Shown here piece after piece: positions 10,395-13,854 of a DNA stretch of 64,000 bases. Origin of the DNA: Limnochordales bacterium (lineage in GTDB: Bacteria; Bacillota; Limnochordia; Limnochordales; DUMU01); the NCBI GenBank assembly GCA_014896315.1, contig JADBKP010000013.1, positions 1 through 64,000 on the forward strand, read 5' to 3'. The notes beneath the pieces were generated by a model. The model did no database searches. It saw only the letters and a program-made list of their open reading frames with translations, and had not been told where the DNA came from. The position numbers were made by a program, and so were the translations under genes. Each line of letters begins with the position of its first letter. Within the stretch, counting starts at the first letter, position 1.

Positions 10395-12134
10395 TTGGAA
10401 GATCAGAACACACCCATCACACCCGAGGCTTCCGACGCCACGGAAGAGCGATCGGAGGCCGTCTCTTCAGTTCCTGAGGGTCAGGAACTTGGCGGCGACC
10501 CTGGTACAAGCAGTACCGCCGGCTCGGCGGGCCCGGTGGAAGGAGCGGCTTCTACCCGGCAGGGGACGACCGGCGTACTGCGGGCCGCCGGTATTCTGAT
10601 GACGGCCACGCTGATCAGCCGGCTGCTTGGGTTCGTGCGGGAACGGGCGGTGGCCGACATCTTTGGCCGCAGCAGTGATACGGACGCTTACACGGCTGCC
10701 TTTGGCATACCCGATCTCATGTACATGTTGCTGGTCGGCGGCGCGTTGAGTGCGGCTTTCATTCCCGTCTTCACCGAGTACCTCGCCAGGGACCAGGAGG
10801 AAGAGGCGTGGCGGATCGGCAGCACGTTCATCAATGTCACCCTGGGCGTACTGCTTCTCTTTCTCGTCCTGGGTATCATCTTCACTCCTCAACTTGCCCC
10901 CCTGGTGGCCTACGAGTTTGCAGGTGAACAGCGGCTGCTGCTCATCCGCCTGATGCGCATCACCTTCCCGGCCGTTTTTTTTACCGCGCTGGCCGGCCTG
11001 CAGATGGGCGTACTCAACTCTTATCGGCATTTCACTGCCCCGGCTTTGGGACCAATTCTCTACAATCTGGGCATTATTGGCGGCACCTACATCCTGGGAC
11101 CACGCCTGGGTGTGGTGGGAATGGCCTACGGAGCGGTGGCCGGGGCGGCCGCCAACTTCCTCGTGCAGCTGCCGGCGATCTGGCGGTATGCCCGCCGGTT
11201 CTACCGGCCTCGGGTAGATCTGCAGCACCCGGCATTCCGACGCATGCTGACTCTCATGGGTCCGGCCGTCATAGGCTTGTCCATCGGCCAGCTGAACGTG
11301 ATTCTCACGCAGAACCTGGCCTCGGGCTTGAGCTCGGGCAGTATGACGGCGCTACGTCTTGCCAACCGCGTGATGCAGTTTCCCCTGGGTATCTTTGCCA
11401 TGGGATTGTCCCAGGCCATTTTCCCTACTCTTACCCGCCAGGCTGCCCTGAACGAGATTGACAGGCTCCGGTACACAGTGGTGCGATCCCTGCGGCTGGT
11501 CCTCTTTCTGACCATCCCGGCAGCAGCAGGAATGATGGTGCTGGGCCGTCCCATCGTTCGCTTCCTGTTTCAGACCGGGGCGTTTGACGACGAGGATACT
11601 GCCGCTACTGCCGCGGCCCTGAGTATCTACTCCGTGGGAATGATTGGACTGGCCGGAGTGCAGATACTGGCGCGGGTGTTCTACTCCCTCAAGGATACGC
11701 GCACCCCCGTCCGGGTAGCCGCGATCAACCTTCTCGTCAACTTCGGCCTTGGCCTGCTCTTCCTCCGGTTCACGTCCCCGGGTTACCTGGGCTTGGCCCT
11801 TTCCTTTGCGCTGGCCGCATTAGCTGCTATGGGCAGCTATCTCTGGCACTTGCACAGGAGGATCGGCCCGATCGGCTATGGTCCGATTCTGAAGGTGGCA
11901 ATATTGACAGGCATAGCCTGTATTCCCCTGGCGCTGGCCGCCTGGCAGGGGGCGGCGTTGGTCCGGAGCCTCCTTGGTACTGCCAGCATGGCAGCACGTA
12001 CTGCGGAGGTGGGAGCAGGGGTGATCGCCGGCATCATGGGCTTTGCCATTGCTGCCTACCTTCTGCATGTAGACGAAGCGGTCGAAATATGGAGGATGGT
12101 ACGAAGGAAGGCAGGTGCGTTCGGCAGTGATTAG
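10395..12134 (+). CDS. murJ: Lipid II flippase MurJ
   Basis: MVIN/MATE-type membrane protein that flips lipid-linked peptidoglycan precursors to the outer face. After a 55-residue acidic, non-conserved N-terminus, the family sequence begins at ILMTATLISRLLGFVRERAV and continues through about 14 hydrophobic segments. ISRLLGFVRE, DAYTAAFGIPD and the later FYSLKDTRTPV are typical. The start is TTG at 10395 with GAGGAG 8 nt upstream. It lies 23 nt after spoIIP and overlaps the next gene by 20 nt. murJ does not sit here in Bacillus. Its position next to an engulfment hydrolase may reflect a wall-synthesis role in sporulation, which is inference. Confidence 0.92.
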   Translation: MEDQNTPITPEASDATEERSEAVSSVPEGQELGGDPGTSSTAGSAGPVEGAASTRQGTTGVLRAAGILMTATLISRLLGFVRERAVADIFGRSSDTDAYTAAFGIPDLMYMLLVGGALSAAFIPVFTEYLARDQEEEAWRIGSTFINVTLGVLLLFLVLGIIFTPQLAPLVAYEFAGEQRLLLIRLMRITFPAVFFTALAGLQMGVLNSYRHFTAPALGPILYNLGIIGGTYILGPRLGVVGMAYGAVAGAAANFLVQLPAIWRYARRFYRPRVDLQHPAFRRMLTLMGPAVIGLSIGQLNVILTQNLASGLSSGSMTALRLANRVMQFPLGIFAMGLSQAIFPTLTRQAALNEIDRLRYTVVRSLRLVLFLTIPAAAGMMVLGRPIVRFLFQTGAFDDEDTAATAAALSIYSVGMIGLAGVQILARVFYSLKDTRTPVRVAAINLLVNFGLGLLFLRFTSPGYLGLALSFALAALAAMGSYLWHLHRRIGPIGYGPILKVAILTGIACIPLALAAWQGAALVRSLLGTASMAARTAEVGAGVIAGIMGFAIAAYLLHVDEAVEIWRMVRRKAGAFGSD

Positions 12135-12564
12135 CCTGGCTCACGGATTGACCGGTGCGGCGCTGGGGGTAATGCTGCGCCATCCCGCGGCAGCCTTACT
12201 GGCAGGCGTGATATCGCACATCCCCCTCGATGAGACGCCGCACCGGGATTACCGGACAGCGCTTGCGGCCATCGTCGACCTGGTGGCAACTGCAGCCGTG
12301 CTGGCGATGGCATGCATCTATCTACATCGCCGGCAACGAGCTGAACTCGTGCTCCCTCTCCTTCTGGGAGCGGTTGGGGGTATACTGCCCGACCTGGAAG
12401 TAGCGATTGGATACTTCTATCATCAGCGTCTCTTCTTCCCAACTCATACCGGTCTATTGCCACACCCACAGCTCCAATCCGGCAACCTGGGGATATGGAC
12501 GCAGGTGGTTGTTATCCTCCTTGACCTGCTCTGCCTTGGGGTGGCAACTGCTGCCCCCAGGTAG
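12115..12564 (+). CDS. Small membrane protein, YdjM-like putative hydrolase
   Basis: The 149-residue product has about four hydrophobic segments and a spaced set of His/Asp motifs: HGLTGAALG near the N-terminus, SHIPLDETPH, GILPDLE and THTGLLPH. This pattern resembles the YdjM/DUF457 group of membrane proteins, predicted to be metal-dependent hydrolases of unknown substrate. It starts with GTG inside the end of murJ (20-nt overlap) with AGGAAGG just upstream, so it is co-translated with the flippase. Function is not established. The family assignment rests on the motif pattern only. Confidence 0.6.
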   Translation: MRSAVISLAHGLTGAALGVMLRHPAAALLAGVISHIPLDETPHRDYRTALAAIVDLVATAAVLAMACIYLHRRQRAELVLPLLLGAVGGILPDLEVAIGYFYHQRLFFPTHTGLLPHPQLQSGNLGIWTQVVVILLDLLCLGVATAAPR

Positions 12565-12599
12565 GAGTCGATCTGGCGCAGATACCACTCGCGAACCGA

Positions 12600-12628
12600 T
12601 TGACCTGAGCGGCAGGCACTGGTAGAAT
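12600..12628 (+). promoter_or_regulatory. Sigma-A promoter of the corA leader
   Basis: TTGACC (12600-12605), a 17-nt spacer and TAGAAT (12623-12628) match five of six consensus bases in each box. The predicted RNA start near 12635 lies about 245 nt before the corA start codon. Confidence 0.7.
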
Positions 12629-12776
12629 GGGCTGGCGTAAGAGGTGAAATGCTGGTGGACGCTGATCGACAAGAGACTAATCAGCCTGCAAGACGCCGGA
12701 ATGCAGGGGTATTGGGGGTATGTCCCGGCTGATCCCGCTGGGGCGCAGGGTGGCGCCCGGCTGGCACGTTGACGGG

Positions 12777-12801
12777 AGGCCCCTTGCGGGCCTTTTTCTT
12801 T
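12777..12801 (+). terminator. Terminator/attenuator in the corA leader
   Basis: AGGCCC (12777-12782) and GGGCCT (12788-12793) form a 6-bp stem with loop CTTGC, followed by TTTTCTTTT. It lies between the promoter at 12600 and the corA start, so read-through would be needed for corA expression. Confidence 0.7.
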
Positions 12802-12878
12802 TGTCCTGAGACCCCCGGTTCCCCGGTTCCAGGAGCAGGTGGGGCAGGCCAGCGTCGTGCCGGCCGGGGGGTGGGATA

Positions 12879-13835
12879 ATGTTGCGGGCATATCGGGAAG
12901 TCGGTGGGGTCTTGCAGGAGGTTCACGATCTGTCCCAGCCGGGCATCTGGATCGATCTGGTACGACCCGATGATGCGGAGCTCAGGAAGGTCAGTGAAGT
13001 TACGGGTTTGTTGCCAGAATTCCTCAGCGCCGCCCTGGATCCGGAGGAGCGGCCGCACCACGAGTTCGAAGATGAACAGGCGCTGATCGTCATCCGGGTT
13101 CCGGCTGCCCGGTCCGAGGTGGAGTACGTAACCATTCCTTTGGGGATCGTGATCGCCCACGACTGCCTGGCCACCGTCTGCCTGGAAGATACCCCGGTGG
13201 TACGTGGACTCATGCAGAATGCCAGGGTCCATCCGGGCAAGAAGACACGTCTGCTTTTGCAGCTTCTCTACCGGACCGCCCGCCAGTATCTGGATAGCGT
13301 GCACCGTCTCTACAGTAAGGCCGAACAGCTGGAAGCGGTCCTTGTCCGTTCAATGCGAAACGAAGAGATGTTCGAGCTGACCGAGATTCAGAAGAGCTTT
13401 GTCTATCTGACTACCGGCTTGCGGGCTAACCATATCGTCATGGACAAACTCCTGCGTTCCCGGCTGCGCCCGGTCGAGGAGGGTGACGCGGGCGGATCGC
13501 CGCTGCGGCTCTACCCCGATGATGAGGATTTACTGGAGGACGCTATTACCGAGAATGAGCAGGCGCTCTCCATGGCGGAGGTTTACAGCAACATTCTGAC
13601 CAACACGATGGATGCCTTTGCCTCCATCATCTCCAACAATTTGAACATTGTCATGAAATTCCTGGCGGCGGTCACGATTATTCTGGCCGTTCCGCAAGTC
13701 ATCGGCACGTTCTTCGGCATGAACGTGCAGGTTCCCCTCGCTTCTACACCGGGCGGGTTTGCTATCATCATACTGGTATCCGTTCTCGTGAGTCTGGGCG
13801 CAACTATCCTCCTGTGGCGGCGGAGGATGCTGTAG
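12879..13835 (+). CDS. corA: CorA-type divalent cation channel
   Basis: Pentameric inner-membrane channel for Mg2+ (or Co2+/Ni2+). The 318-residue product has a large cytoplasmic N-terminal funnel ([19 protein letters not shown] is typical), a long helix ending in [28 protein letters not shown], and two C-terminal membrane segments. The selectivity signature GMN occurs in FFGMNVQVP at the end of the first. The loop after GMN lacks the usual MPE stretch, as in the GMNV subgroup, so the ion is uncertain. ATG 12879 follows GGGGGGTGG. The structured leader and terminator upstream suggest attenuation control. lepA follows after 19 nt. Confidence 0.92.
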
Positions 13836-13854
13836 GAGGGGTAACCAGGACCGC

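Follow-up and report, generated by a model that had tools for sequence, protein, structure and literature searches.

A putative magnesium-sensitive leader peptide in front of corA in a Limnochordales bacterium, and similar acidic leader peptides in other Bacillota

The window, a stretch of 64,000 nucleotides from a Limnochordales bacterium, contains corA together with a promoter, a leader and an intrinsic terminator (Table 1). The gene order in this 2.59 Mb genome (G000) is spoIIP, murJ, an ORF of 149 amino acids, corA and lepA, and all of the elements associated with corA are 3' of the 149-aa ORF. The CorA encoded here is the only one found in G000, and a search of the genome for MgtE and MgtA found neither. 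Only in G000 do corA and its leader separate the 149-aa ORF from lepA (region 12115-13854); these two genes adjoin in its two nearest relatives, with a gap of ~150 bp, and no similar CorA was found there.

Table 1. Features of the corA leader region (positions in the window)
Feature	Position	Strand	Basis or remark
Promoter, TTGACC-17 nt-TAGAAT, extended -10 TG	12600..12628	+	10/12 match
Leader transcript	12635..12802	+	start ~12635 inferred from -10 distance
Shine-Dalgarno GAGGTGA of leader ORF	12641..12647	+	7 nt 5' of GTG; sequence
Leader-peptide ORF, GTG start, MDADRQETNQPARRRNAGVLGVCPG then stop	12655..12732	+	sequence; MDAD[RQP] conservation
Candidate antiterminator hairpin	12745..12787	+	-21.6 kcal/mol; takes up terminator 5' arm; not above shuffled controls
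Intrinsic terminator, GGGAGGCCCCTTGCGGGCCTTTTTCTTTT	12774..12802	+	-12.8 kcal/mol
corA	12879..13835	+	ATG at 12879; Pfam CorA E=1.5e-49

The original prediction placed a near-consensus promoter and an intrinsic terminator in front of a divalent-cation channel gene, and we agree on both. A promoter match or a terminator match taken singly is only modestly above chance (3 promoter-like sites vs 0.7 expected, and 3 terminator-like sites vs 1.3 expected). The order promoter-leader-terminator-corA is found again in loci L175, L067/L176 and L177, and hexamers resembling the promoter are also present at the equivalent position in L175, L067 and L177. An ordinary constitutive promoter followed by a terminator that is read through, with no regulation of corA, would fit scans that are each so near chance. 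However, the order of the elements and the encoded peptide are conserved in four leaders, and small ORFs of this type are strongly enriched upstream of corA (see below), so we give such an unregulated arrangement very little credence.

The leader contains a short ORF that is preceded by a Shine-Dalgarno sequence and is upstream of the gene for a Mg2+ transporter, CorA. The ORF has 25 codons, begins Met-Asp-Ala-Asp-Arg and includes a run of three arginines (RRR). An in-frame ATG at 12649 was rejected as the start codon because it is only 1 nt from the Shine-Dalgarno sequence. The sequence at the Shine-Dalgarno site, AGAGGTGAA, is identical in L175. Among the nearest relatives of this CorA (69% identity for L175, 66% for L067/L176 and 64% for L177), the shared portion of the leaders is the ribosome-binding site followed by the short ORF, and the pairwise comparison of the window leader with that of L067 scored better than 498 of 500 shuffles. 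The peptides are MDADQRGCRARHAYTGGG in L175 (starting MDADQ), MDADRPALANRIEAVPAGGRTGH in L067 and MDADRPALANRIEAGLAGGGAGR in L177 (both starting MDADRP), and a more distant locus from a Negativicutes MAG, L083, also has MDADRP (MDADRPSSLKES...). Positions 2 and 4 of the window peptide (MDADR) are acidic, as they are in L175, L067, L177 and L083, and the pattern MDAD[RQP] extends to L112 and L123. The codons for Asp-Ala-Asp differ at their third positions (GAC/GAT GCT/GCC/GCA GAT/GAC) while the residues are constant, and the start codon varies. The window peptide has no proline before residue 11, and therefore no EPDP-type proline beside an acidic residue; in relatives proline is at residue 6 (L067/L177) or residue 5 (L112/L123). 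An intrinsic terminator is 3' of the ORF in the window, L067, L175 and L177. The next nearest CorA, that of L178 (55%), has no such leader. The DNA itself shows the ORF and its Shine-Dalgarno sequence, the conserved acidic start of the peptide, the terminator and the link with a Mg2+ transporter gene.

Two neighboring features were seen in these relatives. A 134-aa ORF of similar appearance to the 149-aa ORF is directly downstream of corA in L067 (4028-4432). A TPP riboswitch, an Rfam match at 945-1058 in L177 and recognized by eye in L067, is on the opposite strand upstream of the corA leader, so the leader terminator probably does not belong to an upstream operon in these loci.

Coding constraint at the N-terminus could also be expected if the peptide were a functional small protein, for example a partner of CorA, and not a regulatory upstream ORF (uORF). 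However, conservation is limited to about the first five residues, the C-terminal parts diverge even between L067 and L177, and the shortest uORFs have 11 residues and the longest more than 40. We find this explanation hardly credible.

The original proposal was that the leader may be a metal-binding riboswitch, either new or far diverged from a known one; the ORF would then be incidental. A promoter, leader and terminator arranged in front of a cation channel gene, and short strings resembling the Mg2+-sensing M-box, are in keeping with that proposal. The strings are indeed present, but 'AGGTGAA' is the Shine-Dalgarno site and 'AAGACGCC' falls within the codons for Ala-Arg-Arg of the leader ORF. 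No Rfam family reached its gathering threshold in the window leader or in that of L067, and in the window leader two hits at E<=10 were far below their cut-offs; the M-box and all other Rfam families were rejected for both leaders at relaxed thresholds as well. The M-box covariance model (RF00380) found no match in the window at E<=10 and none in the genome. The same search found an M-box in G002, a genome of the same family (E=1e-31), and the negative result for G000 is therefore informative; the G002 match (L223, contig 4, 43429-43596) is a full M-box of 133 bits. The leader fold is no better than those of shuffled sequences (z -0.32), so the three or more hairpins once described there are no more than chance would give. 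Inspection of a MAFFT alignment of the four nearest leaders did not support a conserved RNA structure, and no conserved aptamer was found; conservation was highest over the Shine-Dalgarno sequence and the first codons. Blastn searches with the leader DNA found no convincing second copy, either in G000 or in 100 relatives. A 6S RNA or other stand-alone small RNA was also considered and rejected, because Rfam gives no support for one and because the unit goes together with corA in relatives. A metal-binding riboswitch is thus very unlikely. What stands of the earlier proposal is an attenuator-type leader of a divalent-cation transporter gene, with Mg2+ as the likely cue. The region in front of corA probably encodes a tiny Met-Asp-Ala-Asp peptide.

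Acidic uORFs are common upstream of corA. We scanned 330 bases upstream of corA in 130 non-identical loci for uORFs with a Shine-Dalgarno sequence, 5-45 codons, Asp or Glu at residue 2, and Asp, Glu or Pro within residues 3-6. Such uORFs were found at 42 of the 130 loci; two thirds of the corA loci had none by the same scan. The reverse strand gave 0, dinucleotide shuffles gave a mean of 3.0 (maximum 9), and regions upstream of other genes at these loci gave 2 of 114 (1 of 113 after one mis-assigned corA was removed). A stricter pattern, with acidic residues at both positions 2 and 4, was found at 20 of 133 corA loci and 0 times on the reverse strand. The corA loci had themselves supplied the motif definition, after examples had been seen, so it was then kept unchanged for the leaders of other genes. 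It was present before mgtE at 11 of 29 loci, before mgtA at 3 of 19, and before trkH, which encodes a potassium transporter, at 0 of 30 (p=1e-4 for mgtE vs trkH and p=0.05 for mgtA vs trkH; many of the loci are related and not phylogenetically independent, so these p-values are guides). Examples include MDADPKRT (corA of Christensenella hongkongensis, L139), MDGDPS, MDSGPEH and MESDPS, MDADPGSS before an mgtE and MEPESS before an mgtA. When the peptides are pooled, the profile reads M-D-(D/G/A/S)-D-P-S-S: D or E at residue 2, D the commonest residue at 4 and P at 5, and acidic residues infrequent from residue 10. In the pooled corA, mgtE and mgtA uORFs, most of the proline codons within residues 3-6 are CCT (23 of 37). 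CorA, MgtE and MgtA belong to three unrelated families that have Mg2+ in common, and the presence of similar peptides before all three suggests that translating ribosomes serve as a magnesium gauge.

Some of these leaders also contain an M-box. M-boxes are present in 9 of the 42 uORF-bearing corA loci (L071, L079, L082, L093, L097, L184, L209, L211 and L221) and in five mgtE or mgtA loci with the motif (L249 and L252 for mgtE; L224, L227 and L228 for mgtA). In the corA cases whose coordinates were compared, the M-box ends ~75-130 bases upstream of the uORF. Leaders with both an M-box and an acidic uORF appear to have two Mg2+ sensors in tandem. By eye, uORF codons 2-4 (GACGACCC) in L209, L211 and L221 are complementary to a distal GGGTCGT segment of the same uORF near the ribosome site of corA, and a translational switch could result. 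L071 has a very long hairpin (~2930-2995) whose 5' arm falls in the last part of the uORF; the 3' arm precedes what may be a second hairpin (ACGACC/GGTCGT) surrounding the Shine-Dalgarno sequence of corA.

The cue sensed through translation of the leader peptide need not be Mg2+. Polyamines, charging of Arg or Asp tRNA, general translation stress or an antibiotic could act on the ribosome, with the terminator as the readout. Classic amino-acid attenuators share the layout of a uORF plus an intrinsic terminator, and the RRR run in the window peptide would suit such a mechanism. However, the acidic start is conserved and the arginine runs are not, the gene downstream encodes CorA and not an enzyme of amino acid biosynthesis, and D-A-D is the conserved part of the peptide. 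In addition, the same start is found before mgtE and mgtA and not before trkH, and an M-box is present in many of these leaders. We consider a cue other than Mg2+ unlikely.

Acidic leader peptides that respond to Mg2+ are a kind already known. In E. coli MgtL, the residues EPDP are at positions 2-5; in low Mg2+ the ribosome dissociates there and transcription continues into mgtA, an effect that is lost when Glu2 and Asp4 are mutated (PMC11282234). The window ORF resembles mgtL of E. coli and Salmonella in being a short leader ORF of a Mg2+ importer with acidic residues at positions 2 and 4 (PMC11282234, PMC11552253). In contrast, mgtL acts via Rho whereas the window leader has an intrinsic terminator, and the window peptide has D-A-D-R in place of E-P-D-P, with no proline in residues 3-6, and precedes CorA in a member of the Bacillota. 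The corA leader of E. coli and Salmonella also has a uORF, corL, and the more corL is translated, the less corA is expressed (PMC11552253). However, corL is reported to have fewer proline and acidic residues than mgtL and uses Rho and stem switching, and we liken it to the window uORF by description, not by sequence. mgtQ, an 8-aa ORF before Salmonella mgtB, similarly controls a Mg2+ transporter through acidic early codons (Asp2 and Glu5), which abort translation (PMC8092293), although it governs initiation of mgtB translation within the operon and not termination. The M-box likewise places Mg2+ transporter genes under Mg2+ control and shares leaders with acidic uORFs in other Bacillota, although it is absent from the window leader and its genome. 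Lastly, a conserved small ORF of Mycobacterium tuberculosis, rv1805A, is between an M-box and a Mg2+-related operon; its peptide is reported to be specific to mycobacteria, and the system is Rho-dependent (PMC12810186).

Since the Bacillota peptides have acidic residues at the positions that matter in MgtL, we propose that ribosomes do not get beyond the start of the ORF in low Mg2+ and that the terminator is then read through. Transcription would begin just 3' of the promoter and produce a leader with a ribosome-binding site and the 25-codon ORF. When Mg2+ is sufficient, the ribosome would pass the acidic start and reach the stop codon, the terminator would fold, and corA would be off. When Mg2+ is low, the acidic residues at positions 2 and 4 could make the ribosome unstable or slow it over the first few codons, as in MgtL. 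Ribosomes held at the start of the ORF might then allow an alternative hairpin to take up the 5' arm of the terminator, and corA would be transcribed. Translation of the ORF, its dependence on Mg2+, destabilization of the ribosome and the antiterminator are all steps that we infer.

In the predicted fold, the candidate antiterminator hairpin and the terminator arm (12774-12797) are mutually exclusive. Equilibrium folding gives a terminator probability of 0.16 with the ribosome at codons 3-5 vs 0.82 with the ribosome at the stop codon, a difference equaled by 13% of shuffles, and the balance between terminator and antiterminator is sensitive to changes of a few bases in the extent of ORF masking. 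No such change in terminator folding with ribosome position was found in L175, L067 or L177. The RNA switch in the window leader is thus a candidate that is not above chance. Pairing of the tail of the uORF with the terminator arm was rejected, as the complementarity is not above chance. In the wider set, 33 of the 42 corA leaders have no terminator after the uORF, and a test of whether the uORF generally sequesters the ribosome site of corA was null. The readout in most of these leaders therefore probably differs.

We think it likely that the window contains an attenuated corA leader with an acidic, Mg2+-sensitive leader peptide, a counterpart in the Bacillota of mgtL and corL that uses an intrinsic terminator. 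We also lean toward a broader conclusion, that a widespread class of Mg2+-sensing leader peptides with the pattern Met-Asp/Glu-x-Asp-(Pro) exists in the Bacillota, is common to CorA, MgtE and MgtA and is often behind an M-box, with ribosome stability as a second gauge of Mg2+ in the same transcript. In the open-access literature that we searched, we came across no acidic leader peptides of Bacillota Mg2+ transporters, and sensing of Mg2+ by such peptides is described only in enterobacteria (mgtL, mgtQ and possibly corL). As far as that literature shows, the new elements are the taxon, the occurrence with three kinds of transporter, the M-box tandem and the use of an intrinsic terminator. The tandem of M-box and acidic uORF raises the question of why one leader would have two Mg2+ sensors. 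If our proposal is correct, the ribosome's own need for Mg2+ would be widely used as a sensor, with readouts that differ between leaders, the intrinsic terminator being the one used in the window.
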